DNA from: Chrysophaeum taylorii
Taxonomy: Eukaryota > Sar > Pelagophyceae > Pelagomonadales > Pelagomonadaceae
Assembly (NCBI GenBank): GCA_029834535.1
Contig: JAQMWT010000390.1
Coordinates: forward strand, 372,001 to 436,000
DNA length: 64,000 nt
Direction of reading: 5' to 3'
Position 1 is the first letter of the stretch. The number at the start of each line of letters is the position of its first letter. Below, one piece after another: positions 1 through 60,859 of this stretch. Both the position numbers and the translations under genes were made by a program. The notes under the pieces were generated by a model. The model did no database searches. It saw only the letters and a program-made list of their open reading frames with translations, and was not told where the DNA came from.

Positions 1-3000
1 AACCGACGAGTCGCCCGAAAGAGGGTTGAGGCCGTAGGCTTCGTCGATAACGAGCACGCAGCCCTGGCTTTTCTCGAGGATGGCGTTCGTCCGCTCCTCC
101 GACTGCCCGAGAGCCGAACCGATAAAGTCGCTCGGGTTTTTGAGAACCACCTCGCCCTTGGATAACAGGCCGAGATCCTTCAGAACGCGTCCGTATATTT
201 TCGCGCAGCTCGTTTTCCCCGTGCCTGCGTCGTATCATCTCGTGGTCCACTTTACCGACGACGACGACGACGACGCGATATAATAATATATGCACGGGCG
301 CGCGTTTGATTTATTATTTCGACGCTGGCGGGTGCCAGGATTCCCGAGGAAGATTCGGTTCAGCGTCACCTATATATAACATCAAAAATGGATCGTCCCG
401 CAATACGAAAGACGCGCGTGCGTTACCTCTTGCAGCTCCATCTCGTTTTCTTCGCGCTCCGCGTTGCTCGCGACCTGATGATGAGGTCGTCGGAATGTTT
501 TTCGGAAGAGCCACTCTTCAAGAAACAAACGTCTTCCCGAAAAAAAAAAAAAGACTCTGCTCGCAACCATCTCGAGGAGCTGCTTCACGCTTGCCTTGAC
601 CTTGTCGAGTCCAATCAAATCCCACAGCTCCTTGAGAGCCTCGGACTGTTCAAAGGTCACCGTCCTCGGGCCCAGAAAATCTGAGCGAATCAGTGCGAAC
701 TTGTCGGGGGCTCTTCCGTTCTCGTTCTCTCGTACGACTCGCTGGCTCTGGCGCTCGAAAACGAGTTCCAGGTAGTTGCGAACCGCGCGCGCGTTGCCAA
801 ACCCGGTCGTGGAACGCTGCCGGCCAAGTCGCCGCGCTGCGATGCGGACGTGCTTCGCATCTTCGACTCGGTACCGGGACTTCTCGTCGAGCTGCGCTCG
901 CATGATACTCGTCAACTCGTCGTCGGTGAAATCCGGAAAATCAAATCGCCTACGGAAACGCGACGGCAGGCCTTCGTTGTGCTCGAGCAACGCCTCGAGC
1001 GGCTTCGCATACCCAGCAAATACGACAACCAGCTTTCCTCGCTTGTCCTCCATCTCCGCGAGCAAGTAATCCAGCACTTGCCGGCCGATTTGATTTGTCT
1101 TGGGCTCGAGTTGATAGGCTTCGTCCACAAACAGCGTCCCCCCTTTATTGCGCGATCGCACGCGGTCGCGTGGTACCATTATTTTTTCGACGTTATTATT
1201 TTTCTTCTTCTCGAGTTTGATGTTGTAGGATCCATCACTGTTCGTAGAATCCACGACGCCGCAGCGGTCCCACTTGCCCTTAACTTTTGTGGCGATTTCG
1301 ACCTTCTCGCCGACGGGCAATGGCGACTGGCCGTCATCCACGAGATTCGCGAGGAGCTTTTTGAGATCCGTCACCCCCCCTTGAGCAAGCTTCGCGCCCG
1401 ACGTCTCCTCGAACGCTGCTGCTGCTGCACCTTTTGGTAGAACGCCCAACTCAGCGAGAACTTGCCCGTACAAGCGCGCCGTCGTCGTCTTGCCCGTTCC
1501 TGTCGCGTGGGGAGCTTACGCGCATAAGGTGTTTTGCCAACATCATCAGCAATAATACCTGGATTACCGGTGAATACGGCGTTGTACTGCTTCGTGCTCG
1601 AGTCCTCGCCGCGCTCCTTATCAAGGTTGACCTGTGGAAAGATCAGTTCAATTGTTGTATCGAACGAAATCGGGGTGGTGACAGTGCATCATCACGCCTA
1701 GCGCGAGGTGAGCATTTGATTTGATTAAGACGCTGAGCTCGACGGTATCCTTGAGCGCGAGCAAGTCTCGCTTTACTGGTTGGATGCCAGTCAATGCCAC
1801 CAACTCGCGGAGCGCGGCACTCTGCCCAGCTCGCCGCCGCATATCCTCCGCCTCCGCTTGAGCACGCGGCCGTGGGTCTGCTTTCTTCGACAAGGAATTG
1901 TCCGCCCATTCCAAGCATCTCCGCGCAATGTTGACAACGCCCGCGGCAGCGTCGGGGACTACTTCTGGACGTAACAGAGGGACGCACGACGCGAGCGCGT
2001 GGCCATAGGCCAACGCCGCATCTCCCTTTTGCTGAGCGGCCAAAGCCCAACAAAGGTCGCGAAGCGCAGCAGCGACATGGAGGGTCGCCGCCGTCTCCTC
2101 CATCTTCGATACGCCGGCGTCAACGGCGTCGTCGTCGACGGAGCACATCTCAACCTTTTTGAAACCAAGCTGATACTCGCAGACTTTTGAGAACAAACGA
2201 GCGGCAATTGACCAGTTGGTCATCTTCTTCCCCGTACGCAACTCCGTTAGCACGTCGTGCGCTTCGAGCCACTCCTCCCGTTTCATATGATCAAGGCACA
2301 GCCTCAAGTCACGGTGGAGATTCGCGGCGCTCCCGAGCGGCCGATTTTTTTTTGAGTCGACGGCCGCCAAGACTCGGTCGATGACTTGGACGTTTTTTTT
2401 TGTCAGTGACTTCAAAGCTATCGCAAGCTTGTCGCGTGGCAAGAATGCGCGCAGACTCCCCACAAGGTCTCCGGCGAGAAGATAAGGACGAAGGTGCTCT
2501 CGCCTGAGGGGTCGTCGAGCTTTTATTAATTACGCGAGATGCGCACAAAACGCGAAATGAAAAACACGACTCTCACAGATCGAGCTGTACTTCAACAGTA
2601 CTTCGCGCAGCATCCGTGCGACGCTTCGTTTCCAAGCGTTCTTGCTCTGCGGTGAAAGAAACCTGCGACGAAAATCCCCAAAACAACTTTTCTCGCGCGC
2701 GCTCACGCTCGTCATTTGGTTGGTCAACGTTTGCAGGTCCCGCTGCGTCTGCTGGTCGAGGACATTCAGCCGATCCTCCGAGAAACGTTCCTTCTCCTTG
2801 AGCTCATCGAGTGTTTCTTCGACTTTTCGGACTTTCTCTTGCTTTTGTGCCATCTGGATGGCTTCGCTCGCCGCGAGCTCGTCTTCGGCGCGTCGACGCT
2901 CTTCAACGCATTCCAGGATGCCGTCAATCTCGTTTCTCTCGCGACGTTGCTTCAACTCTCGCCGGAGTCGCTCATTCTTTATCTCGTCTTGAACTTGCTG

Positions 3001-6000
3001 CATTTTGAGCTCCCGCTCTTTCTCCAACGCGGCGATTTGTTGACGGATCTTCGCGCGTTCGGACTCGACTCGAACGCGTCTTTCGTCAGCCTCGCTCTGC
3101 TTTTTGCTCGCTTCCAACTCGAGCTCGACCAAGCGTTGCTGCTCGTCGCGTACAATCTTCGCGAGCGTCTCGCATGCCGCACACGCTCTCCTAACCTTAT
3201 CGGAGCACGATCTTCGTACGACATGCCCCTCTTTGCAGTAATCAATAACCTGCGACATGTAATCAATCGAGCGCGCCGTCAGAATAATAATAATAATAAT
3301 AAGGTTCAACTTTTTTTTTTCGACGCCGTAGGAAGAGTAATAACCGGTGCTGAGCAAATGGCGTGCTGCTTGTGATGTTTCCTGTCGAAGGGATGACACT
3401 TGAGAGGGCACGCGTGGCCACATTTCAGAACTGCTTCGCACGGACGGTGACAGCCACCATCCGCGGCGCGAGTCTCGAAGTCTTTGAGCGTATCCAGCAA
3501 CCGCGGTGGCAAGTCGGGGTGATTTTCGCATCGCGCCGGAAGGCCTCGGTGAATCAAGCCCTGGTCAGCCATGTCGTCGAGGATTTTCGTCCAGCACGAG
3601 TTGCCCGCCGCCGCCGCCTTGCGCAACGTCTTGCTGCTGCCGATGATGATTTCGCACAGTCTGGCGCGGGAGAGCAAGACGTTGACTCGCTCTGGTTCGT
3701 TCAAGAACCCAATTTTCCCGTCTGGATTGCTGCGTACCAGCGAGGCGATGACAATGTCGTTTTCCTCACCCTGGAAATTGTCAATAGTCGCGACGCGAAC
3801 AGAAGAATCCTTTTTTGGTAACGACGACGTAGGGGATTCGGCATCGTCGTCGTCCTCGAGGTCGTCCGCGTCGAGTTCTCCCACGAGCGAGCCGAGATTC
3901 GCACGGCGGAGCTCGTGTCGTATTTCTTGGAGCTGGCCCAAATACGGCGTCAGCACGACGACTTGGCTCGGGTCGTAGTCTTGCTGGAGTACGTACCGCA
4001 CGATCGCAGAAACCATCGCGACCTCGTGTCTGTTTACTTTGTTCGATGGGTCGTGATGATGAGACTCGTCGTCGAGGTCAGCCGCGTACGCATCTTCGGG
4101 CTCGTCGTGATCGACGAACAAAACATTGTGGGTCAGGCCGCGAACGCGGTCTCGAGAGAGGGTACCGGGACCATCTTGCAAAGTTGGGTACGTCGTCGAC
4201 CGTATGAACTGAGAAATTTCGGGTCGCATCCGGTGTTGCACGCTAAGCTCGCCATGCGGAAAGTCTTTGCTCCTAACCAGTCGCTCGAAGAGCGAGACAT
4301 TGAAATCGAAGCCCCTTTTCGCCGAGACAGTTAACGGATAATGTTCGAGCTTGGGCCGCAACTGCTTGTGGTCGCCGATCATGATGAGATGCTTTAGACC
4401 GCTCTGCAGACTTGTCAGGGTGTGAGCCTCCAGGACCTCTCCGGCCTCCTCGATGACGACAACGCTGATGTTGACGTCTTCCAGCACGTGCTTCAACCTG
4501 CGCGGGACCTCCTTCCTCCTCCTCGAGCAACTCGTTAACCACTAACAAACGCGCGAGCACGCACATTCACACAAAATGCAGACAGACAGACAGACAGACA
4601 GACAGACACATTGGACGGACGGACGGACGGACGGACGGACTCTGATTGTTTGACCTGGCGGCGCCCGTCGTGGTGCATCCGATCACCCTGCTTTGCTCCA
4701 AAATTGCACGCCAGTCGTCCTCCTTGAGGGCCGAGAGCTTATTTTGGACCTCCTCGTACTCGAGCAGCACCTCTGCTAGCTGCTCGCGCGCCTCGGACGA
4801 TATCTCGTCTTCCCACTTGGATTTCAGGTCAAGGCGAGCCTGTTTGTCGAGGCTCCAGACGCCTCGTGGGTTCTGACGCGAGTAGTCGTCCCCTCGATCA
4901 TAGCCGCTCAGCCAGCGTCGATACAGGTGATTTGGCTTGAAGCTTTGTCCATTCGGTCCGACGACGACAAACTCGCCCGTGTTTGGTTCGGAAGTGCGTC
5001 GTCTCCCGGGGACCGTGAGGCTCTCGTGCGCTGCAGGGTCGTACGCTTCCAAAAATTTCTGAATCGCGGCCCACGATCGCTGCTTGCTCAGGTCTTTGCG
5101 GAGATACGAAATCTGCTGGTCGCATTCCGACTTTCGTTGCTTGAGGGCGCCATAGCGTCGTCGATCGAACGACGAGCACGACGACGACGACCACGGGTTT
5201 GAGCGCTGCTGATTAAAAAGATCCTGTTGCTTCTTCTGCAGCGTGTACTTCTCGAGCTTCTGCGCTTGGCACCTCCCGCCCACGCGCACGACGTTGGTGA
5301 TCGAGCGTTCGATCAAGTTCCCGAGAAACTCATCGAGGGCGTGGTTGGTGAAGGTGAGTATGAGGATGCGCTCAGTAGTGGAACGGTAAATGAGCTCGGC
5401 GAGTCTGACCCCGAGGTGCGTCTTGCCTGTTCCCGGCGGCCCCACCGTGACCGACACGCGCGTAGCGAGAGCGAGCCGCAGAGCGTCGCGCTGCGAGGGG
5501 TCGTACTCAAAGCCGTCGCTCCTCTCGAGATTCTCGATCTCGGCGTCGACGTCGAGGCCCGCGAGGTAGGTGGCGACGCCCGGCTTTTTCCCGTAAACAA
5601 GCTCCTCTGCAAAGGGTATCGAATGCATTTTCTGCAAGCAACTCAGGACGGGCTCGTAGGTAAAATACCCCGCGCACACGCGTACCAGGCTCGTGCTCGT
5701 GACGCGCCCGAGGCCGCGCAGGATGTCGGCGAGCTCGTACGCGTCGAGATCCCGCGCAAAAGCGAGTCCCACACGCGGTCTCGCACGGTTGTTTCTGAAG
5801 GTATCGCGGGATGCGAGCTCGTCCGGTTCGGCGCGCACTATCGTGGCCACGTATTCGACTCTTCCCTCCCTTTTGTTGACGAGAGCAACGAGCGATCCAA
5901 GAGGAAAATTCTTCGCTCCACTCGGGGATCGCCAATACTCGAGAGCCTCGCCACCCTTGAGCCTGGCGCCGCGGTGCCGGGGCGGCAGCTCGCAGCTCGC

Positions 6001-17029: not shown

Positions 17030-17356
17030 CCAGAGCATCCATCCCCGCACCACTATAGTACGTCGCCAGTCTTCTTCTTCTTATTCTTCTTCTTCTTCTT
17101 CTTCTTCCTCTTCCTCTTGAAGAAGAAGAAGCCTTATTCTTGCGTGGGGAGCAGCAGCAAGAAAACGCTGTTGTGGTGGGCCCAGTCTGATTGATGTTGA
17201 CGACGATGCTATAGTCGGGGCCGAAGATTCGTCCAAATTGTAAACTAACTAACTAACCCCTTGATTCGTTTTTTGGGGTTACGTGGTCCGACGTGGCAAA
17301 TAGGAGCCGCCCCGAAACTGTGACGCAGCGTAGTTGCGTCATCGAGGCGCGGCGCG
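16956..17356. repeat. Microsatellite-rich spacer
   Basis: Holds (GTTT)n/(ATTT)n at about 16979-17030, (TTC)n at about 17071-17118 and a following GAAGAA run. These could fold as a CTT/AAG hairpin around 17100-17130. The end of the spacer should contain the promoter of the Lys/Glu-rich gene at 17357. No coding region is supported. Confidence 0.6.
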
Positions 17357-20300
17357 ATGATGTTGATGCTCCTCCCTGCCGCCCAGGCCCTCGTCTGGTT
17401 CCAGGCGACAGCACCGCCTCCCCGCGGCACCTTATCGCTGTACGCCGAGCCCCCGGAAGAAAAGTGCTTGGCGACAGCTGGCTACGAGCCAGTCGCCACA
17501 CTCATCGGGGACCACAAGTGGCACCACGGCTTCATCGCCGCCGGCGACGCCGAGGCCTGGGCCTCGCTGCGCGACAGCTTCCGCGACACCTACGACCCGA
17601 CTTCCTTCGTCCCCCTCGAAGCCCACGTCCTCCTCGGCCACTTCGCCGAACACCTCGGAGACCTCGACGAAGAGCGGCTCGCGCCCCTCGTCCAGGCCCG
17701 CGAGAAGCTCAAGGCCATGGCCCCCGTCGTGGCGGGCTTGATTGTGCTGGGCGAGGAGGACTTCGACATCCAAGGTCTCCAGCCCTTTCTCGACCAGAAC
17801 GGCCTCTTCGTCTATCACCTGCACTGGGCTCTCCGCCTCGCTGAGATCGAGAAAGACAACAAAAAGAAGCAGATCGAGCTCGCGGCCAAGGACGCCGAGC
17901 TCGCGGCAAAGAAGGCCGAGGTCCAGGCCCTCATGGACCAGCTCCGCTCGCTCCAGGGCTCCCCGGGCGTCGCCGACCTCGGCACCTTGCGGGACCAGCT
18001 CGCCGAGCTCAGGGCCATCGACGTTCCTCTTTCGTTAGGCGATAATGCCCTCGATCCTTCCGTCGACGAGAGAAAAGACCCCGCCGTCGTCGAAGAAGTT
18101 GCCAAGGTCGCCGCCGCCGCCGAGAACAAGAAGGGCGACGAGCCGGTTCTCGTACCCGGAGACCTCGAGAACTCCGCTGCCGACCTCGAGGAGGAGAAGC
18201 ACGAGCAGAAAGTGTTGGAGGAGGGCAAGGCCGCCAACGAGGAGAAGACGATCAAGGCCGAGGAGGAGGAGGAGGAAAAGAAGGAGAGCGTCGAGGCCGA
18301 AAAAGCGGAGGAGGAGGTCGAGGTCGAGAAAAAAGAAAAAGTTGAGAAGACGGATGATGCCAAGCCCGAAAAAGATCAAGAGGTTCTAGCAGAGAAGGAC
18401 GACGAGGAGGCGGTCAAGGCCGAGAAGGACGAGGAGAAGGCCAAGGAGGTCAAGGAAGAGAAGAAGGACGAAGAGGTCAAGGCTGAGAAGGAGAAGAAAG
18501 ACGAGGAGGTCAAGGCCGAGAAGGAAGAGAAGAAGGACGAGGAGGTCAAGGCTGAGAAGGAAGAGAAGAAGGACGAGGAGGTCAAGGCTGAAAAGGAGAA
18601 GAAGGACGAAGAGGTCAAGGCTGAGAAGGAAGAGAAGAAAGACGAGGAGGTCAAGGCTGAGAAGGAAGAGAAGAAGGACGAGGAGGTCAAGGCTGAGAAG
18701 GAAGAGAAGAAGGACGAAGAGGTCAAGGCTGAGAAGGAAGAGAAGAAAGACGAGGAGGTCAAGGCTGAGAAGGAAGAGAAGAAGGACGAGGAGGTCAAGG
18801 CTGAGAAGGAAGAGAAGAAGGACGAGGAGGTCAAGGCCGAGAAGGAAGAGAAGAAAGACGAGGAGGTCAAGGCCGAGAAGGAAGAGAAGAAGGACGAGGA
18901 GGTGAAGGCTGAGAAGGAAGAGAAGAAGGACGAAGAGGTCAAGGCTGAGAAGGAAGAGAAGAAGGACGAAGAGGTCAAGGCCGAGAAGGAGAAGAAGGAC
19001 GAAGAGGCCAAGGCTGAGCAGGAAGAGAAGGAAGAGAAAAAGGACGAGGTCAAGGCCGAGAAGGAAGAGAAGAAGGACGAGGTCAAGGAGAAGAAAAAGG
19101 AGGAGGTTAAGGCCGAGAAGGAGGAGAAGAAGGATGAGGTCAAGGTTGAGAATAAGGAGGAGAAGGAGAACAAGAAGGAGGAGATCAAAGCCGAGGAGGA
19201 GGACAAAGCGGAAGAGATAAAGGCGGATAAGGAGGAGAAGAAGGACGAGGCCAAGGTCGAGGAGAAGAAGAAGGAGGAAGAAGTCAAGGCCGAGAAGGAA
19301 GAAACGAAAGAGGAGGTCAAGGCCGAGAAAGACGAGAAGAAGGAGGAGGTCAAGGCCGAGAAGGACGAGAAGAAGGAAGAAGTCAAGGCCGAGGAGGTGG
19401 AGAAGAAGGAAGAAGTCAAGGCCGAGAAGGAGGATAAGACTGCAGTCAAGGCCGAGAAGGAAGAAACGAAAGAGGAGGTCAAGGCCGAGAAAGACGAGAA
19501 GAAGGAGGAGGTCAAGGCCGAGAAGGACGAGAAGAAGGAAGAAGTCAAGAAGGACGAGAAGAAGGAAGAAGTCAAGAAGGACGAGAAGAAGGAGGAAGTC
19601 GAGGCCGAGAAGGACGAGAAGAAGGAGGAAGTCAAGGCCGAGGAGGTGGAGAAGAAGGAAGAAGTCAAGGCCGAGAAGGAGGATAAGAAAGAGGAAAAGG
19701 AGGAGGTCAAGGCCGAGAAGGAGGAGAAGAAGGAAGAGAAGAAGGAAGAGAAAAACGAAGAGGTCAAGGCTGAGAAAGAGGAGAAGAAGGAAGAAGTCAA
19801 GGCCGAGAAGGAAGAGAAGAAAGAGGAAAAGGAAGAGGTCAAGGCGGAGAAGGAGGAGAAGAAGGAAGAAGTCAAGGCCGAGAAGGAGGAGAAGAAGGAG
19901 GAGGTTAAGGCCGAGAAAGACGAGAAGAAGGAGGAAGAGGTCAAGGCGGAGAAGGAGGAGAAGAAGGAAGAAGTCAAGGCCGAGAAGGAGGAGAAGAAAG
20001 AGGAAAAGGAGGAGGTCAAGGCCGAGGAGGAGGAGAAGAAGGAAGAGAAGAAGAAAGAGGTCAAGGCGGAGAAGGAGGAGAAGAAGGAAGAAGTCAAGGC
20101 CGAGAAGGAGGAGAAGAAGGAGGAGGAGGTCAAGGCGGGAGGAGGAGAAGAAGGAAGAAGTCAAGGCCGAGAAGGAGGAGAAGAAAGAGGAAAAGGAGGA
20201 GGTCAAGGCCGAGGAGGAGGAGAAGAAGGAAGAAGAAAGAGGTCAAGGCGGAGAAGGAGAAGAAGAAGAAGTCAAGGCCGAGAAGGAGGAGAAGAAAGAG

Positions 20301-22182
20301 GAAAAGGAGGAGGTCAAGGCCGAGGAGGAGGAGAAGAAGGAAGAGAAGAAGAAAGAGGTCAAGGCCGAGAAGGAGGAGAAGAAGGAAGAAGTCAAGGCCG
20401 AGAAGGAGGAGAAGAAGGAGGAGGAGGTCAAGGCGGAGAAGGAGGAGAAGAAGGAAGAAGTCAAGGCCGAGAAGGAGGAGAAGAAAGAGGAAAAGGAGGA
20501 GGTCAAGGCCGAGGAGGAGGAGAAGAAGGAAGAGAAGAAGAAAGAGGTCAAGGCGGAGAAGGAGGAGAAGAAGGAAGAAGTCAAGGCCGAGAAGGAGGAG
20601 AAGAAGGAGGAGGAGGTCAAGGCGGAGAAGGAGGAGAAGAAGGAAGAAGTCAAGGCCGAGAAGGAGGAGAAGAAAGAGGAAAAGGAGGAGGTCAAGGCCG
20701 AGGAGGAGGAGAAGAAGGAAGAGAAGAAGAAAGAGGTCAAGGCGGAGAAGGAGGAGAAGAAGGAAGAAGTCAAGGCCGAGAAGGAGGAGAAGAAGGAGGA
20801 GGAGGAGGTCAAGGCGGAGAAAGAGGAGAAGAAGGAAGAAGTCAAGGCCGAGAAGGTGGAGAAGAAGGAAGAAGTCAAGGCCGAGAAAGACGAGAAGAAG
20901 GAGGAGGTCAAGGCCGAGAAAGACGAGAAGAAGGAAGAGGTCAAAGCTGAGAAGGAGGAGAAGAAGGGAGAAGTCAAGGCCGAGAAGGAGGAGAAGAAGG
21001 AGGAAGTCAAGGCCGAGAAGGAAGAGAAGCAAGATGAAAAGGAAGAGGTCAAGGCCGAGAAGGAGGACAAGAAAGATGAAAAGGAGGAGGTCAAGGCCGA
21101 GAAGGAGGAAGTCAAGGCGGAGAAAGAGGAGAAGAAGGAAGAAGTCAAGGCCGAGAAGGAGGAGAAGAAGGAGGAAATCAAGGCCGAGAAGGAAAAGGCC
21201 GAGAAGAAGGAAGAAGCCAAGGTCGAGAAGGAAGAGAAGGAAGAGGTCAAGGCCGAGAAGGAGGAGAAGAAGGATGAGGTCAAGGCCGAGAAAGAGGAGA
21301 AGAAAGATGAAAAGGAAGAGGTCAAGGAGAAGGAGGAGAAGAAGGAAGAGGTCAAGGCCGAGAAGGAAGAGGTCAAGGCTGAGAAAGAGGAGCAGAAGGA
21401 AGAAGTCAAGGCCGAGAAGGAAGAGAAGAAAGAGGAAAAGGAAGAGGTCAAGGCCGAGAAGGAAGAGGGAAAGGAAGAAGTCAAGGCCGAGAAGGAAGAA
21501 GAGGCGGAGAAGAAGGAAGAGGTTAAGGCTGAGAAAGACGAGAAGAAGGAAGATGTCAAGGCTGAGAAAGACGAGAAGAAGGAAGATGTCAAGGCTGAGA
21601 AAGAGGAGAAGAAGGAGGAGGTCAAGGCCGAGAAAGAGGAGAAGGAAGAAGTCAAGGCCGAGAAGGAGGAGAAGAAGGAGAAGAAGGAGGAGGTCAAGGC
21701 GGAGAAAGGCGAGAAGAAGGAAGAGGTCAAGGCCGAGAAGGAAGAGAAGGAAGAAGGCAAGGCCGAGAAGGAAGAGAAGAAGAAGGTCAAGGCGGAGAAA
21801 AAGGACAAGGCGGAGATCAACGGGCAATTGAATGGCAAGGCGAACGGCAAAGCGAAGTCGCCTGTATTCGAGGAGGCTGACGAGCCATTTGATGTGTCGG
21901 TGGAGCGAGTGGCAGTGTTTGAAAGAGTTTTTTTTTTTGTTCCCCGATGATAAAGGGAGCGCGCAGGTCGTCGTCGTGGAGGAGCCGGCTCGTGCAGTCG
22001 TCGAGGAGGAGGGGGAGTTCGCTTTTGAGGCTGCTAAGGCTCCGGTAAAGGACACTGCCGCCATATCCCTGCGCAGTAGCGGCGGCGTGCATGCGGCCGT
22101 GCCTACTTTGGGCGATGTTTGCCATCACAACAAACCAAATTATGGACGTCGTCGTCGCTTGCACTTTGTGTGTTTTGTGTGA
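17357..22182 (+). CDS. Giant Lys/Glu-repeat protein with N-terminal signal-like segment (frame broken in the repeat)
   Basis: Opens at ATG 17357 with a hydrophobic leader (MMLMLLPAAQALVWFQ) that could be a signal or plastid-targeting peptide. Residues ~35-200 form a folded, unrecognised domain ending in a coiled coil (KKQIELAAKDAELAAKKAEV). From about 18400 the protein becomes tandem 11-13-residue units such as VKAEKEEKKDEE, predicted highly charged and helical or disordered. Near 20137, 20232 and 20255 three units are 2, 5 and 4 nt short relative to neighbours. The repeat therefore leaves the starting frame and resumes in another from about 20260. These could be assembly errors or real lesions. 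The tail (NGQLNGKANGKAKSP) is followed by a probable 73-nt intron (21894-21966) and a last exon to TGA 22182. Function unknown. Confidence 0.65.
18400..21800 (+). repeat. Coding minisatellite, 33-45-bp GA-rich units
   Basis: About 3.4 kb of degenerate tandem units of the type GAGGTCAAGGCCGAGAAG followed by a GAGGAGAAG variant, nearly pure purine on the plus strand except for TCAA/GCC steps. Higher-order periodicity is visible: 20150-20800 repeats a ~180-bp block about four times. The composition opens very long antisense frames that are not genes. Confidence 0.95.
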
Positions 22183-22519: not shown

Positions 22520-23950
22520 TCAGATAGTGGCGGACGCCGTCTCCTCCTCCATTATTTTGGCGCGGGTGGTGGCGTAGAATTCGTCGCGCTTCGCGAGGGC
22601 GAGGAGGACCTCCGCGTAGGACCAGGTGAGAGATTGGGCGGATGTCTGGTCCCCAGTGTTCTTGTCGATTTGCTCGTCGAGACGGCCCGCGTCGGTGGCG
22701 ACGTGCGCGTTGATGCGACGGAGGACCGAGTCTCCCGCGTAAGCGAGGTCGGCGGCGAGGGCTTTTTTGGAGGAGGTAACGCGGAGGGCGTTCTCCCACG
22801 CTTGGAGCTGCTGGTCGGTCGGGACGGCGGCATTGATATCTAAGGCCGCGCGGTAGAGCAATTGCGCCAAGGCCGCCGTCGTCAGGATCCAAGGGTTGCC
22901 GCCGGCGTAGGTATCCCCCGGGTACCGTCCGATCATCGCGCCCGGGACGCCGTTCGTCGTGTCTTGGACGTTGATGGGGTATTCGGCGCAGAAGACCTTA
23001 AGATAGGCTCCCACAGTTTGGGCGACTTGGATTCCCGACGGTTTGGTGAAATCGTCCGTATCGTCGTTCATGTTGAGAGCCACGACGACGGCGCCGTCTA
23101 TTCGCCTGTTGTCGCTCTCGAAAAAGTAGGTGGAGAAATGGTCGACGAGAGTTGCGTTGATCGCGTCGGCCACCGCGGCGTAGGACGCGTCGTAAGCCGA
23201 GGCGCGCCGCAGCGCGGTTCGCATCGTGACGCGGTTCCAGAAGAAGTCGTCGGATTCAACTTCCTCCCACAGGTCGCAGGTCGCGTCTTCGTACCCCGAA
23301 ACGACGTAGTCTAAGTCGTCCCTGATGGTGTCCCAGACGTCTAACCCCGACATCATCAAGGCGATGGCGCGGAGACCCGGCCCATCGTTCTGCGGTCTGC
23401 ACCAAGCCCCCGTATAGACGTCGCCGCTCGGAATTTCGAACTTTGGTTCGACGCGAACGTCGATGCCGTTCGGGTCGGATTCCGCGTGCCGTGCGGCCAC
23501 CCACGACGCGTAGTCCTCGAGCCGCGACTCGTTAAAGGGCAGTACTAGCTGCACGGCGCGCATCGCGAGAGCCCCATCGCGAGCCCAGTGGAAGTAGTAC
23601 GAGCCGCCCGGCGTCGACGCGTCCGGAGCTGCCGCGACGGCGCCCGCGCCCGCGATGTCGATGTTGGCGACCATGTTGGCCTTGAATTGCGCTACCAGAG
23701 TCTCCGAGAACGGCGCCGACGAGTTACGCTCCAGCAAGAAACACGTCTCGCCGTAAAAGCACCACGGAACGCCGTCGTCGGCGTCGTCTTCTTCGTGCCA
23801 GCAGCACCCCTTGGCCTCGCACTCGGACTCGGTGATCCCAACGTACCCGCAGTCTATTTTGCTGCTGCTCGCGCTGCACTCTGCCCCCGACGAGACGCCC
23901 AGTAGCGACGACGACCCTAGTAAAACAAGAACGCTTTGCCTCCTCATCAT
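22520..23950 (-). CDS. Secreted glucoamylase (GH15) with N-terminal P-type trefoil domain
   Basis: A 476-residue intronless frame from ATG 23950. Residues 1-23 are a signal peptide (MMRRQSVLVLLGSSSLLGVS). Residues ~30-70 match a trefoil domain (CGYVGITESECEAKGCCW, then PWCF). The rest is a GH15 (alpha/alpha)6 glucoamylase releasing glucose from alpha-1,4/1,6 glucan ends: YYFHWARDGALAMRAVQ, DVYTGAWCRPQNDGPGLRA, DLWEEV with the general acid Glu, GRYPGDTYAGGNPWIL, and LDEQIDKNTGDQT with the probable general base Glu followed by SLTWSYAEVLLAL. It is complete but lacks a starch-binding domain. Action on secreted or endomembrane glucans is inferred from the signal peptide. A MITE lies 87 bp upstream of the start. 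Confidence 0.92.
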   Translation of the reverse strand: MMRRQSVLVLLGSSSLLGVSSGAECSASSSKIDCGYVGITESECEAKGCCWHEEDDADDGVPWCFYGETCFLLERNSSAPFSETLVAQFKANMVANIDIAGAGAVAAAPDASTPGGSYYFHWARDGALAMRAVQLVLPFNESRLEDYASWVAARHAESDPNGIDVRVEPKFEIPSGDVYTGAWCRPQNDGPGLRAIALMMSGLDVWDTIRDDLDYVVSGYEDATCDLWEEVESDDFFWNRVTMRTALRRASAYDASYAAVADAINATLVDHFSTYFFESDNRRIDGAVVVALNMNDDTDDFTKPSGIQVAQTVGAYLKVFCAEYPINVQDTTNGVPGAMIGRYPGDTYAGGNPWILTTAALAQLLYRAALDINAAVPTDQQLQAWENALRVTSSKKALAADLAYAGDSVLRRINAHVATDAGRLDEQIDKNTGDQTSAQSLTWSYAEVLLALAKRDEFYATTRAKIMEEETASATI

Positions 23951-24037
23951 ATTATGATTGTTGTGTCAACAATCTTTTGCTTTCCAAAACACGAGTAATA
24001 AGGGTTTGACATTCAATCATTCATTCATTCTGTGGGT

Positions 24038-24657: not shown

Positions 24658-27600
24658 CTACGCGGTCGTCGCGAGAGGACGAAAGTGCGATTGTCGCGGT
24701 GAGTTAAGCGAAATGAATCCGTTTGGATGATGCATCTTCTTCGAGCTTGTTAGATAAGAGTCTTGTTGTTTATCCTCGTGTTGTTCCGCGGGACGAATAT
24801 TTGCGTGCCCTTTGAACGACGACGACGATGACGACGATACTCCTAGCGTGTTGGACGATAGCCGTGATCCAGCACTGAGCTCGCAACCAGCAGTCGTCAG
24901 ACTCCCGGGCTCCAGAAGAGCACCGGCTCCAATCGTGACGTTGGCAACCTCGACGCGGTCGCTCGCGTACTTATGACAGAAAAGCATAGCCCCTTCCTCG
25001 ACGACGGCGTTCTGTTTGATGGTCGCGTTACCCACATCCCAGAAGACTGGCGAGGCAATGAGCGCGCCTCTTTCAACGCGGGCGCCGAGTGCGCGAACGA
25101 ACACTCGATACGCCGCGGTCGAGCTGAAAAAATAGAATGCAGTAGCGGTGAAACCAGCGCGGCCCGCGTCTCCGAATTGCTGCATCCACAAACCAGCCCC
25201 GAACGGCATCCACCGCTTTGTCGTCCGCCCCTTCGCATCCAAGGCTGTCCAGAACCACTTGTTGATGACGGCCAGGCAGGCCGAACAAAGAATGAAGGAC
25301 GAGAGAAACACGAGCGCTGCGAAGGCGCGGTCAACGAGGAATGGTTTCGCGTTGCTAAAACGTCGACCTTCCCGCGCGCTATCCTCGTCGTCGTTCTGGA
25401 CGTCGCGGACGAGCCACTCGAAGGCCGCGTTCGCCGTCACGGCGGAAACGTAGAGAGAGATTCCCAGGAGCAGACGAGTCCAGAGTAAGAGGGCGAATGG
25501 CGCAACAATATGCAAGAGTTTGTGATAGGATGATAAGCTGCGGTCGTAGTCGAGCAACTCGCGGCTCCGGTGGCCATCCCACGGGAAGCTCGCCGGACTC
25601 TGACGAGAAATGACCGCCGCTGATTTTTCGGTCACCACGACCTCCTGAGGAGGAGCTCCTGTAACTATCGCTTCTGCGTTCATTGTCACGCTGGACTTTC
25701 TCAACTCTGAATGGCCGCCCAGGATCAACGTGTTGCCGCCAACGATCGTCGTTGCAGGTATTTTCACCGAGCCGTCGTTTGTTCCGAGAAGAACGGCTCC
25801 AAAACCAACGATACTATTGTCGCCAATCGTTATTGTCGTCGACCGTGCTGGCAAAACACTGCAGAAGGATCCGAGGTGAGCATTCTTCCCTATATTCAGC
25901 AGTCGCGGGTTGGTGATGCGCTCTAGAAGATAATCGATATGTGTCCACGCGCCTGGCAATGATGATGATGATGATGCTTTAAAAGCACGCGATATGAGAG
26001 GAGGATCCACGCACCAATTTTCGCGCCGAGACAATTATAGTATCGTCGCAAAACCCACGTGGCGCCGAACTGGAAGACCGCCCGTCGATAGATGCTGTCG
26101 GCTAGTCTCTCGTAGACGAACATGATGAAGTTTTCGAGGAGACTGCCAGATTGACCATCGCTCCACGTGGGAAGCGCGTATCTGCTGCGTCCTAGTAGTC
26201 CGAGCCGCTGCTTTCCCCGGGTCACGCTAGTCCTGATCCCTCGAGCGATCCAGAACGACGCGACGCCCACGACGAGCATGGTAAGCTCGTGCTGCACCAG
26301 CACACCGGCGACAAGCGGGATGAGCCGTGCGATCTTCCCGTACCGTTGAAGGAAGAACTTGCGTTGCAATTTCGGGTCCGTGTTGCTAAAAATCATGCTC
26401 ATTGCCGGGAGAATTGGAGAGACGAGGTAGCTGCGCACCGGCAGACGGCGTGTCAGATCAAGTTTTTTTTTTTTTATTTATTTATTTTGGACACTGCCTG
26501 CGAGGGAGCACGTCGAAGTGAATGTCGCGAAGGCCTCGGGGTTCGAATGCAGAGCATCGACGTCAATCTCGCCGCGGCCCGACGGCGGCGGATAGAGTCC
26601 CTCTTTCTTCAGGACGAGCGACAAGCTGAGAAAGGCCGGATACGTGGAAGCGGTGATGATGACAATTGTTGTATAGAGGGCCACGAGCGAAATGAATAAG
26701 GACCAACAGACGGTCGGCCAGATGGAAGTCGGTTCGAGCAACCCCACGTCACCTTCGTTTATCCCGCCGATCGCCTCTCCCGCCGCAACGGTCGCCAATG
26801 CTCCGACGGTCGTGCGCGTCCCGAGCTTGGTCCCTGCCGCCAGGACAGCTCGAGCTTCGATTCGACACGAGGCTCCCAACTTTACGGGCTGAAGGACGAC
26901 CCGACGTTTTACCGCGTCGAACTTGCGAGGGTGAACGATCACTTGCTGGCCAAGAAAGCAACCGTTGCCGATAGAAACAAATCGAGGATCGCGAATGTTG
27001 ACGGTATCGAGGACGACGTCTACCCCGATCCGCGCTCCAAGCAAGCGGTAGTAGATCGGCAGGAACGGCGTCCGCCGAAGCTCTTCGAGAAACAGAAATC
27101 GATTCATTTGGTCGATTCTTTCGATCGTCCACCAGGCAACAAATTTATACGACTCGAGCGAGACGACCGCTCCCGGAGCAAGAAGCAGAGCCGTCGCAGC
27201 AGCCGCGAGGCAGAGCATGACACACACGGATGCCCACGCTAGGGGCGCGTAGACCAAAATGGCGAGTCGCCACGACTCGACTTGTGATTGGTTCAGCCGC
27301 CACGCGACGAGCCACGCGGGCACGACGAAGACGGTAGCGACGTACGCGTAAGCGACGACCCAGCACACAAAGCACAACGCCGAGTGCACGACAGTCTGTT
27401 GTTGTTCCTTCTGATGGGCCTCTGCTGTTTCGACGACGGTGATGTCCACCATGTTTGCGTCGTAGAGCGGATTTGTTGGAGCGTCGTCGCGCGTCGCGCT
27501 CTTCGTCTCGAGCACCGTAGCTAGCTTGCGTATAGTCTCGTAGTCAAAGAGAAGCGTCGATTCGAGTTCCACGCCGGAGAATTCTTTTTGAAGCATGAAT

Positions 27601-30600
27601 CTGATTCGCACCGCAGACAGCGAGCTCGCTCCCAGTTCGAACAACGACGTCTCGGCGTCGAGATCGTCTAACGAACACCCGATCGAGTCCGCGACGACTC
27701 TCGCCACCCTCATCTCCGTGGGCGTGCTCGGCGGTCGACGTCTCCCCCTCGCACGGCGCGGCGGCGGCGGCGGCGGCGGCACCGGAAGCCGCTTTCGATC
27801 GATCTTGCTCGTTCCAGTGCGCGGCCATTCCTCGATTCCAACGATCATCGAAGGCACCATGTACGCGGGGAGCATTTGCCGCAAATTCGAAAGCATCGAA
27901 GCTTCGACATCCGCGATAGCCGCCGGGTTTACGTAAGCAACCAACTGCGGCTCGGTGGTGGTGGTGCCGCCGACGTCATCCCGAAGCAAACACACGGCTT
28001 CGTTCACGAAATCGTGAGCGCGCAGCGCGTGCTCTATCTCTCCGAGCTCGATTCGAAGCCCTCGGAGCTTGACTTGGTTATCGATACGGCCGCCAAACTC
28101 GAGCTCGCCATTCGAGCGCCACCGAACGCGGTCGCCCGTGCGATAGACGACGCCGCGTCCCGACGGGTCGGTTTCTGGCCAAGGGTTTTTCACAAACTTG
28201 GCATTTGTCAGATCGGGTCGGTTCAAGTATCCGCGCGCAACCTGGACTCCTCCTATCAGAAGCTCCCCGAAGACGCCGATCGGTTGGAGCTCCGTCGTAT
28301 CTGGAGCGACGACGTAGCACGTGACGTTCGCTAGCGGTCGGCCGATCGAAGCAAGATTTGCGTCGTCCGAATCAGTCACGACGTTGGACGAGGACGCTAT
28401 GGAGGCTTCCGTGGGCCCATACCTTCAGAGTGAAGAAGCAAATGCACTTAATGCGCAACGCAAGCTTGAAAATAATAACAAAAAAACTCATAAATTGTGG
28501 TGGGCAAAACACGGAGAAAAGAAGCAACTAGGACTCTGTAAGCAGTCGCCGACATGTTCAAAAGATCGCGAGGGAGGCAGTTCAAAACGACGCGGTGCGT
28601 AAGCTTTTCGCCGCCAGTAAGAATTACGCGAACCGTCCTCGGAAGCGATTGCGTCAACGACAACACGCTCGCGACGTCGCCGATGCAGTCGATATTGTCG
28701 GAATCTTCAAGCTCCAGGAGAGAGAGCCCGCTGGAAAGAAACACGCTCGTGCCTCCAAGGATGGTGAGGCAATTGAATAGGTTCAAAGAGAAGAAGTCGA
28801 AAACGTAGTTCGACGTGGCACAGTACCGCACGACGAGACGTTCGGTCGGGTCTTCAAAAAATGCTTCAGGAAAAGAGGCTTTGAAGAAAGGTCGGAATGA
28901 GTGCATCAAATTCACGACGCCGCGATGTTCAACCAACACGCCTTTCGGCCGGCCGGTGGAACCCGAGGTATAAATAACATAGCAGAGGTCTCTGGACCTC
29001 GAAAGAGAGGGCGTCGACGATGAAGAGAGAGCGTCTGAAGAAGTGGCGATGCGACCATCGATGCCGAGTCGCACCACAGTCAGATCGATACCCGACACTA
29101 ACTTTCCCAAGTCGTCGTCGTCGTCGTCGTCGTCGTCGCTCGTGATCAGATGCGAACAGCGCGCGTCCTCGAGCATCAGGCGTCGGCGCTCGACCGGGGC
29201 GTTCGGATCTAGTGGCAAGTAGGCGCCGCCGGCCGAGAGGACGGCCAAGATTGCGGTGGCCATTGCGAGCGACTTTTCAGCAAACAGCAACGCGACGACG
29301 ACGTCAGACGTCACGCCGCGAGCTCGCAGCGTTGCACCAGTAGTCGACGCCGCACTCTCAAACTCAGAATACGTCATCTGCGAGTCTTGCCACTCGACGG
29401 CAGCGATTTCGGGATATCGACGAGCTTGATCCCAGACGAGCTCGTGGAGAAGCCCGTCTCGAACTTGAAAGTCGACGCGAGTATTGTTGAACTCGGTCAG
29501 AATAAGCTCTCGTTCCATGCTTGGGATCATCTCGAGCTGCCAGACGTCGGCGATCTCTCGATTCTCGACGATAGCGGCGGCCAGCACGAGGAAATGCTTC
29601 GCGAGTCGTTCGATGCTGGCGCGCTCAAAGAGCACCGAGTTGAATTCAATCGTCGCTTCGATGTGCCCAGCAGCCGTTGGACATGCCGTCAACGTGACAT
29701 CGCACGTCGTCGCCGCTGGTGGTGACGGAAGATTGACATTTTCGAGGCTCAGGGTTGGGGTCCACCGCAGCAAACCAGAGCTCCACCCATCTTGTGGCAG
29801 CCAGTTGATAAGCGTCTGAAACACGGTGCTTCGCGACGGATCGCGGGTCAGCCTCGGAAGCAATTCGTTGACCATGTACTGGAATGGCACCTGAGAACTC
29901 GACAACGAGTCGATCACGACTCTCCTACAGGCATCCAACAGTCGTGGCACCGACTGACCTCTGGAGATGTTGACATTAAGAGGCAGGATGTTAACGAAAT
30001 ATCCGCAGACGTGATCGAAGTGATGAAAGCCCGGGAGTGTTCGACCTTGCGACGGTGTTCCGACCACAACTTCCTCTGCTCCGCTATGTCTTCCCAGAAG
30101 AAGAGCCCAAGTCGCGAGAAGTACGTGGAAGAGCGTGCAGCGGCACTCCGCTGCGAGGGCTGAGAGCGCGGACGCGAGGTCGGTCGGCACGCATAACTCC
30201 ACGCGATCGCTGCGGTACGCGAGCTTCGCCTGCCGGGGATGATCAACCGGTAGATTCAAAACCTCCAAGGAGCCCTCCCGTAAATGCTGTCTCCAGTAAC
30301 GCTTGTGCTTATCGAGACATTTGTTGTCGAGAAGCAGTGCGCGCTGCGCTAGTGCAAAGTCGCCGTATTGCTTCGGTGGCTCCGGTAAGCGCTTGCTGTA
30401 AACGCCAGCGGTGTTGGTCCCGCACGTCGCAGCGAGATAGAGCTCGCGCAGTTCGCGCAGCATGATGCGCGTCGACATTCCGTCGCACGCGACGTGGTGC
30501 ACAAATACAACCAGTAACATGTCCTCTCGTGGAATTCCACCCGATGGCGCGAGGCGCACGAGCAAAGAGCGAATCACAGGATCACCTCGCAAGAGATCGA

Positions 30601-33600
30601 ATGGTGCGGATTGTTCCTTGCGCGCGCGCTCGAGCGCCTCCGCCTCGGACCCCGCGGTCTCGTCAACAAAGGTCACTTCCAGCACTTCGTGCACGGTTTG
30701 AGTGAAGCGACCATCATCATCGAGCCCGTATGTTGTGCGAAGAATGGCGTGCCGTTGCACGAGCTCGTTCAACGCCTTCCGCAGCGCGGCGGCCGAAGCG
30801 GCACCCCTCATCCAGCTGGCAAGAGGCAAAATACCAACTCCCTGACTACTACCTCTTTCGATGGATGCGCACTCTGTCAGCCATTGCAGTTGGTTGAACG
30901 AGAGCAGCAGACCACCGCGCGACTGCAGATCAAAGACATCAACCAGACCTTGAAGAAGAAGAAGAAGAACCATTTTGTTTTTCTTTTGGGTAGCGAGCGT
31001 CGACGACCCGTCGAGCGACGACGGCGGCCTCGTCGTTAGCGACGACGCGAATTCTGCGACGGTCATCTCTCCGGTCATGATGTCGACCACGGATATGGAC
31101 TCGGGTTCCAGATCGAGCTTTGATGCGATGGCTTCAACAAGTTCCATGACCCATATCGACGCGATGGCAAGCGACTGCAACGTGTCGTTGGCGCCCACGC
31201 GACGATTTAAACGTGTTGAGATGACGTCGACGACGATATCGACAACTGACGGGGAGAGAGCAACCACACCTTCGCTTGTTGTTGTTGTTGTTGTTCTGGT
31301 GGAAACTCGGGGATTTTTTTCTTCATCGTCCGCATCCAGCACCTCCGATTTGTGTAGTAGTTGCAATCTGAAGAATCGATCGACGAGAGATTTCGAGTAG
31401 GCGCACGTGTCTTCTGCCAACTCGTAGGACATGAGAGAGCCGGCCCAGAACGTGCGATTTAGTCCTTGGATACCCTCGAGACGGTCGTAAAAGTTTTCGC
31501 GGAGCGCGTCGCCGCTCACGCGCGGAAAGTACTGCCATCGCTTCGTGCCGTGGACGGCACTCACGCGACCGCCGAGCAGTTCGATGTCGTTGCGAAGTAT
31601 AAGCTCGAGGTCGCTATCATCGAGTCGTCGCGACGACGACGGTGTTGCATACTCCTCAGAACCATATTGAAAACAGGAATATAGAGTTGGGACGGACGGA
31701 TCGTGCTCCTCGTCGTCGTCGCGCGTCGAACGAGCCCGGCACACGCGAAACACGCGTCCCGTCGACTCTGGCAGCCAATGACGCGGAATGTAGGCGACCT
31801 CGGGTAGTCCGGAGGCCGTGACGATTGTGCAGCAGTAGTCAACGAGGCGAACCTCGGATGCGAGCGACGCCACCTCCCCGGATGATGATTTCTCGACGTC
31901 GCGCGGATGTGCGGTGACGACGAGGGCTTCGAACTCCTCCGTTCTTGTCGACAAACGGACGCGCACACGATCTGCCTCGTACTCGATAGCGACGACGTTG
32001 GCACCCGTTTCCACGCGCGTTGCTCCTCGTTCTTCAACTCGCTGAGCCAGCCGCTCGCAGAGTAGACGATACGCGTCCGGCGCGGCCGCGTTCCACGCGC
32101 TGCCGTTGTGGCGAAGCATCTTCAACCTGTAGAGGTCGGGAACCGCGTCTCGCGCGGAGAGGTAGCCTTGCGGTCCATAGAGGACGTCGAGTCTCTCGCA
32201 GACTCGCTCAACATCCTCTATAACGAACCCCTGCGACGCGAGGAACGTATGAAAGGAATCGTGCGAGTCGCGAGTCGAACCAAAACCGACCGCGGGGAGT
32301 CGAGCGGTCGTTTCGGCAATGGCGTGCAACACTGGACCGAGCCTCTCCGCAGTTGATTCGTAAGACGTTCCCAGCAGCAGCGATCGTTCGTCGTCGACGA
32401 AGATCCCAGAGACTGGATCGAAGAACTTGACATCCTTGAGAAGCGAGGTCTTGACGACGCCTCGTAAATCGACCCCTAGTTCTGTTCCCAACGCGAGCAG
32501 ATTCTCGAAGTCGTCGTTGATAGCGTACTGACCGCCGCTAACCCAGCGCTGGAGTGATTCGCACCACACGCCGGCAGCCTTGCCGCCGACGTGATCGTTC
32601 CGTTCGAAAACAGTAATAGACTCGAAGCCCTGCTGCTGCAGATAATGGGCGAGGCTGAGCCCGCCGAGGCCAGCACCCACGATTGCGATCTTCGAATCCG
32701 AGTGGAGACCGAGTGGGTTCTCGGGGTCGACGCTGGCGTCTTCGACGACGGGAACATCGCACTTCAAACGAGCTGCTGCTGGTGGTGGTGGTGCTATGGG
32801 AATTATCTCGGCGGCAGTGCGGTCATCATCATCATCACGCGGAACGACGACCACGCAATCCTCGTTACTCATCCCGTCGAGGCAAGAACTACGGTGCTCC
32901 CCGTCGCCGCCGTCGGTCTTCGCGGGCGCGCGAATCGACGACGACGGGTAGTAGTGGTAGTCGTGAACGATGTCGAGCGCACCGTCTTCGAGAGCCTGTC
33001 GCGTGGCTTGGCGGCGAATCTTGCCCGAAGTCGTGCGCGGAATAGTTGCCTGTTTGATGGCGACGACGCGTCGCGGACGTAGGCCAACGTCGCGAAGAAC
33101 TGCGGCGACGATCGCGCGCGACGCGTCCTCGGCCGTACGCGGGTTTCTAATCTCGCAAACAACAACGAGCTGCTCCTCGTCCTCAATTTCGACGCCAAAA
33201 GCCGCTATAGCACCGTGTCGTATAACGTCGGCCGAGACGCGCTCGACGATGGCGGTCTCGACGTCCTCGGCATAGATATTTATACCTGCGTGCCCGGCGG
33301 TCACAAAACGTGGAGAAGTACACCTTAGCAAAAAAAGCTCGTACACCTTAACAAAAAAAGCTCGTACACTTTAACAAAAAAATCCTCCACAGCGCGCGTC
33401 GACGACACGGGTCGATACCCTGTACGATGATAAGGTCCTTCCGACGGCCGCAAACGTACAAGCGGCCTTCTTCGAGGAATCCCTCGTCCTGGGTACGGAG
33501 GTAGCACCTTCCGTCGTCCGGTTCGAGGCGAGCCTGGAAAATCTCGGCCGAGAGTTCTGGCATGCCCCAGTAGCCACGCGCAACGCTCCCCGAGGAGAGC

Positions 33601-35083
33601 CATATTTCGCCGATCTCTTTGCTCGGGACCTCGCGCCTGCGAGCTGATCGAATCGGGAGCTGAAACGAAGACAGACGACGCGAACTCTGGATCGAGCCGC
33701 GCGTCGGGATCGACGATCCTCACAACAACGCTGAAGTCGTTGCCGCAACAGCACAAGTTCGGTTTCGACGTCGAGCGTCGGGGCGTTATTCCAACAGCTG
33801 CGTCGTCGAGGGAAAACGTGGCACCGACGACCGTCTCGGCGAGTCCGTAGGCGGGTACGACGACGGCGCGAAATCCGAACGGCTCGAGGACGGCGTTGAG
33901 GTGCGAGTACGTGCTTGGCCTCACGCGCTCGGCGGCCGTCATGCAGTAGAAGAGCTTGGTCAAGTCGAGCCGGCCCGCGAAGCGTGCCGGGTCCTTCGCC
34001 TCGACTCGCCGCGCGACGAGCTTGTACCCGAAATCGGGCGAGGCCGTGTAATGAGCCCCGTACCGCGACGCGGCCTCGAGCCAAAGCTCGGGCGTCGACA
34101 AGAAGGTCAGCGGCGACATGTAGTAGACGTCGTCGCCGTGGCAAAAAGGGGCGACGTGTGCGTAGATGAGACCCATGTCGTGATAGGTGGGGAGCCACGA
34201 AATCATCGCGAATCTCTGCGGCAAGACGACGCCTCTTTGCCGCAGACGCTCGAATCCGCGCCGATTCATAGGCAGGATGACCTTGGAGACGTTGTGCCAC
34301 AGGTTATCGTGGCCGATCATGACCTACGAAACAAGGAGCTCCGCTCGTCGTCGTCGTGGTCGGTAGAACACGCCGGGAGAAAACGTACTCCTTTCGGGCT
34401 AGACGTCGAGCCGCTCGTATACTGAAGAAACGCGAGATCGGCCTCGGTTGCGTCGTCGTCGTCGTCGGCGGGCGGTACTGTCAGTGTCTCGAGGTCAGGA
34501 CCTCGCCGCCTCGACAAAAACAACTTCGATTCGTCCACCCCCAAGCCCTCGGTGCTCCTCCAGGTCAAGTTTTTGGGCCACGTCGAGTACGCGAGGCCAA
34601 CGGTCTGGCGGAGAACGTTGATAGCGTTGTCGGTGAGGCAAAGGGCCGCTTGCACCTGCGAGTGTTAAGAAGAAATGATGTTGTTGACGGTGAGGCAGCG
34701 AACTTGCACCGACCTACCTGGTCGCTGACCCGAGTCAGTCTCGCGATCGACGTTTCCATCGTCGACGGTGCCAGCGGGTAGACGGGGACGGCGACGACCG
34801 CGGCCCTGAGACATCCCCAGAAGGCGACAAAAAATTCGAGTCCCGGGGCGAAGCAGAGCAAGACGCGATCGCCGCGGTCGCACGCGCCGGCCCCGCGCAA
34901 GAAGTGACCGATCCGTCCCGCGCGCCGCCAGGCCGCTGCATAAGTCCAGGTCCGCTCTTCACGTCCGCGCCCGTCGAGCCACACCATGCTCGCTTCGTCC
35001 TCGTCGACTTTCTCCGCGACGTGCGCGACTGCGGTGCGCGCGCGACCCCCGTAGGGCTTCCACCACGTTGGTGATGGCATCAT
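24658..35083 (-). CDS. NRPS-like megasynthase: FAAL - FAD oxidoreductase - ACP - C - A - PCP - membrane/beta-helix terminal domain
   Basis: Eight exons join in phase: 35083-34718, 34655-34389, 34323-33673, 33629-33419, 33285-28554, 28422-26512, 26430-26015, 25952-24658 (about 3,282 residues). FAAL (~1-605): LQYTSGSTSSPKG, MISWLPTYHDMGLI, PAYGLAET, TSGKIRRQ. FAD-dependent amine-oxidase-like domain (~695-1130): KIAIVGAGLGGLSLAHYL. ACP (~1175-1245): SLAIASIWVMEL. Condensation (~1268-1760): RHAILRTTY, HHVACDGMS, CGYFVNILPL. Adenylation (~1767-2285): VIYTSGSTGRPKG, YGPTEASIAS, YRTGDRVRW, GTSKIDRKRLP. PCP (~2305-2370): LFELGASSLSAV. The last ~850 residues have several membrane helices and hexapeptide beta-helix runs (ISIGNGCFLG-like, TIGDNSIVGFGAVLLG), matching the NRPS C-terminal region typified by TIGR02353 and poly-lysine synthetase. 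There is no thioesterase. Predicted product: a fatty-acylated amino acid or small lipopeptide, possibly released at a membrane (inference). Confidence 0.9.
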
Positions 35084-60749: not shown

Positions 60750-60859
60750 CGGTCATGAAATTGGATACATAGGATTTCTTCGTCACGGCAGCAGTATGTT
60801 GGAAGGTAGGGTCCAACATAAGGGATTTAATATCGGCAACGAGGAGCGAAAGGTGCTTG

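Follow-up and report, generated by a model that had tools for sequence, protein, structure and literature searches.

A single gene encodes a multidomain assembly line

We analysed a 64,000-nucleotide stretch of the genome of Chrysophaeum taylorii, a marine pelagophyte alga (contig JAQMWT010000390.1, positions 372,001 to 436,000; hereafter the window), in which a single eight-exon gene on the reverse strand, at 24658–35083, encodes a protein of 3280 aa. In order, this protein carries a fatty acyl-AMP ligase (FAAL), an FAD domain, a divergent carrier, a condensation (C) domain, an amino-acid adenylation (A) domain, a peptidyl carrier protein (PCP) and a tail made up of beta-helix segments and six hydrophobic helices that form three pairs. 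The genome that we searched for relatives comprises 70.8 Mb in 697 contigs, and the gene's own contig is 451374 bp long.

The rebuilt gene starts at 35083 and its stop codon ends at 24658. Its exons (34718–35083, 34389–34655, 33686–34323, 33419–33636, 28554–33285, 26512–28422, 26015–26430 and 24658–25952) are separated by seven GT-AG introns of 49–133 nt. Exon 5 holds the C-terminal end of the FAAL, the FAD domain, the first carrier, the C domain and half of the A domain; exon 6, one open frame, continues with the rest of the A domain, followed by the PCP and then the first beta-helix segment. Intron 4 (33286–33418) overlaps a 23-bp tandem repeat (33318–33382, 2.8 copies). Intron 5 (28423–28553) shares its place and phase with a paralogue on contig C52 and apparently with one on C315, where conservation was read by eye. 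The GC content at third codon positions is 0.68, compared with 0.71, 0.80 and 0.84 in three adjacent open frames. An earlier annotation made from the sequence alone (the original prediction) had proposed the same coordinates, strand, eight in-phase exons and seven introns, which the rebuilt gene confirms, but its translation had 3,282 residues rather than 3280. Its view that the gene is resident in the algal nuclear genome agrees with the introns, with the sharing of intron 5 among paralogues and with four paralogous loci on other contigs.

The deposited protein for this gene, CTAYLR_001666 (P0001), is partial, with 2220 aa. It is identical to the rebuilt protein at residues 1–1123 and 1321–2417, and introns 1–5 agree; it splices out residues 1124–1320, which include the first carrier and the start of the C domain, and stops before the tail, at the beginning of the first membrane helix. 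In the DNA, residues 1124–1320 are open and contain a region resembling a carrier and two motifs, the isomerase-family C-terminal motif CAYSKSLVDRFF and LSFNQLQWL of the C domain, the latter reading LSYNQLQWL in the deposited paralogue P0002. Because the stretch is open and holds these motifs, we prefer the continuous reading. P0002 itself is spliced differently at the position of intron 6 and lacks the stretch preceding intron 7.

Matches of the open frames in Pfam and NCBIfam were to FAAL/AMP-binding, flavin amine-oxidase superfamily, Condensation, AMP-binding, PP-binding and hexapeptide-repeat families. The FAAL (residues 1–600, 32975–35083, reverse strand like all parts of the gene) contains introns 1–4, and the open frame of exon 3 matches AMP-binding (PF00501) at 1e-16. 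Its best PDB rows are 7r7f (1.9e-75), 7r7e and 7r7g, titled 'Polyketide synthase', and 3kxw (2.4e-75), titled 'Saframycin Mx1 synthetase B', all of which we take to be FAALs; the AMP ligases FadD23 (6.5e-58), FadD32 and FadD28 follow. The labels are mixed over 23 rows, some being acyl-CoA synthase. By this measure the N-terminal domain is closest to FAALs rather than to CoA ligases. Hallmarks of FAALs are a specific insertion or helix and a proline-lined pocket that rejects CoA (PMC8460268), and the FAAL-specific insertion looks short by eye in the alignment with the PDB rows.

Carrier 1 (residues 1165–1262, 30989–31282) has its serine, S1206, in the sequence LAIASIWVMEL. The C domain (residues 1286–1770, 29465–30919; PF00668, E 5.1e-62) carries HHVACDG. 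Intron 5 divides the A domain (residues 1776–2290, 27774–29449) between N-M and YGPTE; the domain matches AMP-binding in exon 5 (1.8e-41) and in exon 6 (5.1e-14) and has YTSGSTG as well as YGPTE. Its pocket, read by hand as D-F-L-S-I-T-M-I-A-K, has no acidic residue besides the equivalent of Asp235, on a position numbering that we assume. The PCP (carrier 2, residues 2305–2385, 27489–27731; PF00550, E 2e-13) holds ELGASSLSAV. Pfam thus recovered the FAAL, the C and A domains and the second carrier of the original prediction, which had also noted the lack of a thioesterase or reductase: neither is present in the Pfam lists (E ≤ 0.001) or among the NCBIfam matches listed. The E-values rule out chance similarity of the domains. 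FAAL-initiated lipopeptide synthetases likewise have a FAAL in cis with a carrier, followed by C-A-PCP, whereas here an isomerase-like domain lies between the FAAL and the carrier and a membrane tail replaces the thioesterase.

The FAD domain resembles a fatty acid isomerase

The FAD domain (residues 693–1141, 31352–32698) matches Amino_oxidase (1.4e-11) and NAD_binding_8 (2.7e-10) in Pfam, in keeping with its earlier description as amine-oxidase-like. Among solved structures, however, its only strong match is 2b9w (E 3.8e-25, 92.0 bits); a carotene desaturase comes next (3.8e-06, 29.3 bits), followed by a monooxygenase and amine oxidases. We take 2b9w, which bears the PDB title 'putative aminooxidase', to be the FAD-dependent polyunsaturated fatty acid isomerase (PAI) of Propionibacterium (Cutibacterium) acnes. 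PAI is a free-standing enzyme that acts on free fatty acid, and its reaction is redox-neutral overall. The phmmer alignment with 2b9w falls into two stretches (residues 2–42 and 232–444), and the FAD domain can be aligned with PAI over its whole length, with 101 of 400 aligned residues identical (25%) and the GxGxxG, TFxAG and C-terminal Y-S motifs in common. In a profile search PAI scored 560 bits and the next match 62.6, with a profile dominated by PAI-like rows.

A first bacterial genome scan, with a two-row alignment, confirmed 0 of 153 stretches. The second found 93 relatives of the FAD domain, 80 of which were kept; with the plasmid locus L009 added, 70 match over about 380 residues or more. 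Judged by title, they come mostly from Erysipelotrichaceae, Lachnospiraceae and Solobacterium of gut or rumen origin; Vibrio, Photobacterium, Colwellia and others are also represented. Plasmids yielded one full-length relative (Photobacterium) and one partial one. A protein database search with the FAD domain passed only P0001 and a metagenome protein, P0121, among 7999 scored candidates. Within the alga's own genome there is one full-length match and one Rossmann-only match, which rules out PAI as a repeated domain of this genome.

Residues R88 and F193 of PAI presumably clamp the substrate carboxylate. We aligned 54 of the 70 long bacterial matches with this FAD domain and that of P0121: 48 of the 54 bacterial rows retain R88, and at the F193 position 49 have Phe and 4 have Tyr. 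By contrast, both megasynthase FAD domains have Gly at R88 and a gap at F193, a change that is expected if the substrate is a thioester. Since the clamp is missing, we describe the domain as one that may work like PAI and do not classify it as PAI, from which it also differs in lying inside a megasynthase.

The surroundings of the bacterial relatives were scanned at several loci. L013 and L018 both have an AMP-binding ligase and a second flavoprotein, and L013 has an acyl-ACP thioesterase too, which places PAI relatives beside fatty-acid genes; these surroundings are possibly a biohydrogenation cluster. L013 also has a ferredoxin-reductase-like gene, and open frames of similar size occur in many sister loci. 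Searched with the alga's own FAAL (tblastn, 1e-5), 12 of the 80 fetched bacterial loci contain an AMP ligase. The same search with its tail and C domain found nothing in the 80 loci. On these results a bacterial linkage of PAI with either FAAL or tail was rejected, although more distant tails could escape such a search.

The tail is remotely related to Pls and PosA

The tail (residues 2405–3235, 24796–27431) contains introns 6 and 7. When joined, it matches TIGR02353 in three stretches (E 2.5e-28, 98.8 bits), and Pfam finds Hexapep in it (8.5e-07). Hydropathy places hydrophobic segments at 2417–2448, 2459–2497, 2643–2678, 2747–2768, 2994–3022 and 3053–3083, which form three pairs separated by hexapeptide/beta-helix segments. 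TIGR02353 is also the best family, with three stretches each, for the tails of P0004 (91.7 bits) and P0121 (125.3 bits), so that it leads in all three tails tested. Identity to this tail is 534 of 758 aligned residues in P0002, 239 of 723 in P0004 and 152 of 653 in P0121.

With its three pairs of transmembrane helices and its beta-helix segments, placed behind a PP-binding carrier, the tail reproduces the layout of the poly-lysine synthetase Pls and of PosA. The PosA tail has been modelled as six transmembrane helices and three left-handed beta-helices (LbH), and an A domain and carrier alone, without the Pls/PosA domain, made no poly-lysine (PMC10522769). Pls, PosA and fungal Epls all have an adenylation-thiolation unit followed by six transmembrane helices and three tandem beta-helix segments (PMC10522769, PMC7179176); the algal gene differs in that FAAL, FAD domain, carrier and C domain precede this arrangement and in that hand reading finds no cationic pocket. 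The homology of the tail to the Pls/PosA polymerisation domain, a resemblance already noticed in the original prediction, is real but remote. A protein database search with the tail found only P0002 among 2501 scored candidates; because it missed P0004, this search was insensitive. The P0004 tail had no match among plasmids.

Sister genes and recurrence of the tail

Six contigs with Condensation matches were examined over 20 kb each. On C315, C52, C370 and C529, a FAAL, a gap, C, A, PCP and tail follow in order, and C529 carries two C-A-PCP modules. The carrier before the first C domain has a Pfam match in C52, C315 and C529 and was recognised by eye only in C370 (GVTSLEAAEL). In place of the isomerase-like FAD domain, these four sister genes have a domain that we call X; the FAAL-X-C-A-PCP-tail layout was not found in the stretches examined of C466 and C671. 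Domain X spans C315:246800–249700, C52:65200–68000, C370:174200–176500 and C529:258200–260700 of the genome (G000). Its frames are 87, 70 and 39% identical to the C315 frame, the C370 frame being only a part. Apart from FAAL parts, no Pfam family at E ≤ 1 emerged from the four open frames scanned, the part of X in the next frame lying outside the scan. Domain X may be another acyl-chain-editing enzyme.

The tail itself is more widespread. In P0004 (CTAYLR_006909), a tail accompanies five AMP-binding stretches and an acyl-CoA-dehydrogenase-like part. A genome search with TIGR02353 scored 64 of 94 candidates, so that its counts are lower bounds; it found at least 73 stretches, none above the cut-off, which we grouped within 4 kb into 46 candidate loci. 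In 21 of the 46 loci (18 of 38 with a stretch of at least 40 bits and 12 of 22 with at least 60 bits), a PP-binding match on the same strand precedes the tail by no more than 1.5 kb, at 136–853 bp; none of the 46 has a carrier within 1.5 kb downstream or within 3 kb on the opposite strand. Five tail loci lie behind C domains, at 2.0–2.3 kb, five behind ketosynthase domains, at 4.2–4.9 kb (C10 and C297 possibly being the same locus in two copies), and three behind acyl-CoA-dehydrogenase matches. On C330, the C-terminal end of a FAAL and a tail stretch share one open frame. The order on C27 is A, carrier, tail; this stretch (C27:133001–138482), arranged like classical Pls, has a long ankyrin-repeat-like open frame immediately upstream.

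Each part of the gene has relatives, but of the 7999 candidates scored for the FAD domain only this protein and P0121 passed, and P0121 has another layout. This N-terminally partial protein (source code 'lgn', taken as Logan) shares an AMP-ligase part, a PAI-like FAD domain (35% identity) and a Pls-like tail with the algal gene; C-A-PCP is replaced by a P450 part and an HALGDG-bearing C-terminal region, and its carriers were identified by eye only, with no Pfam match. The P450 part (1.9e-13) occupies residues 988–1180.

Proposed function and alternative readings

We propose, with moderate confidence, that the gene encodes a single-chain, membrane-anchored lipo-aminoacyl synthase in which an FAD isomerase acts on the carrier-bound chain and the tail releases the product to an amine. 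The FAAL would make acyl-AMP from a fatty acid, probably a polyunsaturated one, and load carrier 1. The FAD domain would then bring the double bonds into conjugation while the chain is bound to the carrier, with no net oxidation; we infer isomerisation because the closest solved relative is a fatty-acid double-bond isomerase. The C domain, with its HHxxxDG motif, would join this chain to one alpha-amino acid loaded by the A domain onto the PCP. Finally, the Pls-like tail may do the work of a thioesterase: it may take over the acyl-aminoacyl group carried by the PCP and transfer it, at or across the membrane, to a free amine, an acceptor and chemistry suggested by Pls and by the recurrence of the tail behind other assembly lines. 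The product would presumably be a conjugated-polyene N-acyl amino-acid amide or lipopeptide. Both PAI and an algal isomerase that forms conjugated trienes are described in reviews: the polyenoic fatty acid isomerase of the alga Ptilota filicina makes them from eicosapentaenoate and arachidonate, a likeness in described activity (PMC7700177).

Several observations weigh against this proposal, whose account of the function of the whole gene is drawn from sequence. Carrier 1 keeps its serine but scores 15.3 bits with PF00550 (E 0.025), below the cut-off of 20.8, so that of the two carrier motifs once called intact only the second is normal. The tail's 98.8 bits are far under the curated TIGR02353 cut-off of 423.1, and for introns 6 and 7 the evidence is the open reading frame and similarity to paralogues, deposited models lending no support. 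Of 14 control genomes, 13 have TIGR02353 matches, one of them above the cut-off, because plain hexapeptide proteins match this family weakly; some of the 46 candidate loci may therefore not be tails, and at 25 of them no carrier was detected. R88 is also absent from 6 of the 54 free-standing bacterial relatives (Ser in 4, Ala in 1, Asn in 1), so the loss of the clamp is not specific to carrier-bound substrates and proves nothing by itself. Two other bacterial loci have no ligase among the neighbours scanned: L050 has a flavoprotein and a major facilitator superfamily transporter, and L031 an iron-sulfur oxidoreductase.

The original prediction, which is partly supported as a whole, had the fatty acid oxidised while carrier-bound, and oxidation or desaturation by the FAD domain, with the other steps unchanged, would fit its Pfam Amino_oxidase/DAO match, weak NCBIfam matches to squalene/carotenoid flavoenzymes (HpnE, 5e-11; phytoene desaturase, 1.3e-08), the lost PAI clamp, and P0004, where the acyl-CoA-dehydrogenase-like part, an oxidant, lies between the FAALs and the tail. 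We consider this unlikely, as the best of the solved flavoenzymes other than PAI reaches 3.8e-06, most of these matches covering the N-terminal Rossmann part, and the profile search also puts PAI far ahead, albeit with its PAI-dominated profile; the only strong solved relative does not support oxidation. That the gene is unexpressed or mis-assembled, as its partial and divergent deposited model might suggest, seems highly improbable given 3280 codons open over seven introns, the preserved HHxxxDG, YGPTE and both carrier serines, and four loci on other contigs that hold paralogues with a similar layout.

For the tail, the earlier alternatives were release and oligomerisation. Homology to the Pls/PosA domain and the A-carrier-tail locus on C27, a contig without a Condensation match, would suit a tail that, in the manner of Pls, links the loaded amino acid into a polymer, giving an N-acylated oligo-amino acid that the FAAL arm only caps. 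We doubt this, since the score is so far under the family cut-off and the same type of tail ends P0004, which has no C domain or carrier over the Pfam cut-off and whose AMP-binding parts are FAAL-like. Moreover, the hand-read pocket, on the assumed numbering, lacks the second acidic residue seen in Lys/Orn pockets, which makes an isopeptide polymer of the Lys/Orn type seem less likely. A beta-helix tail that serves only to anchor the protein in the membrane, or as an O-acyltransferase that transfers the product to a lipid or polysaccharide hydroxyl, is about equally doubtful: parts of it do match hexapeptide acyltransferases (WcaF family PRK10502, 2.2e-10; a heptaprenylglyceryl phosphate O-acetyltransferase model, 2.1e-09), but TIGR02353 remains the best family in every tail tested. 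We favour a single release, to an amine.

More tentatively, the alga may have converted a bacterial poly-lysine domain into a general membrane off-loading module for nonribosomal peptide synthetase (NRPS), polyketide synthase (PKS) and FAAL-only assembly lines, paired here with an in-cis isomerase on a carrier-bound chain to give conjugated-polyene lipo-amides. An isomerase, not an oxidase, would then operate inside a lipopeptide assembly line, and the gene shows that a little-understood domain of poly-lysine synthesis has been put to new use in a eukaryotic genome. With NRPS, PKS and acyl-only versions in one alga, the function of the domain could be tested directly without amino-acid polymerisation. 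Literature searches, with subscription papers mostly outside their reach, found nothing joining a fatty acid isomerase with an NRPS and an acyl carrier protein, or poly-L-lysine synthetase with nonribosomal peptides and a microalga. In the C. taylorii genome paper, nine genes are counted as NRPS, and the domains listed for PKS genes include A, C, FAD and LbH; 'FAAL' occurs 0 times in the main text, and sections 6 and 8 contain no NRPS architectures and no link between LbH and Pls (PMC10366177).

Other features of the window

A 481-aa open frame at 22520–23965 (reverse strand) resembles, by eye, a secreted enzyme of the glucoamylase type whose start is trefoil-like. Lys/Glu-rich open frames at 17324–21950 (forward strand) consist of degenerate tandem repeats with periods of 9 to 189 bp (KAEKEEKKEEV) and show extreme GC and AT skew. 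At 57636–60752 (reverse strand), a 1038-aa open frame looks by eye like a copia-type retrotransposon polyprotein.

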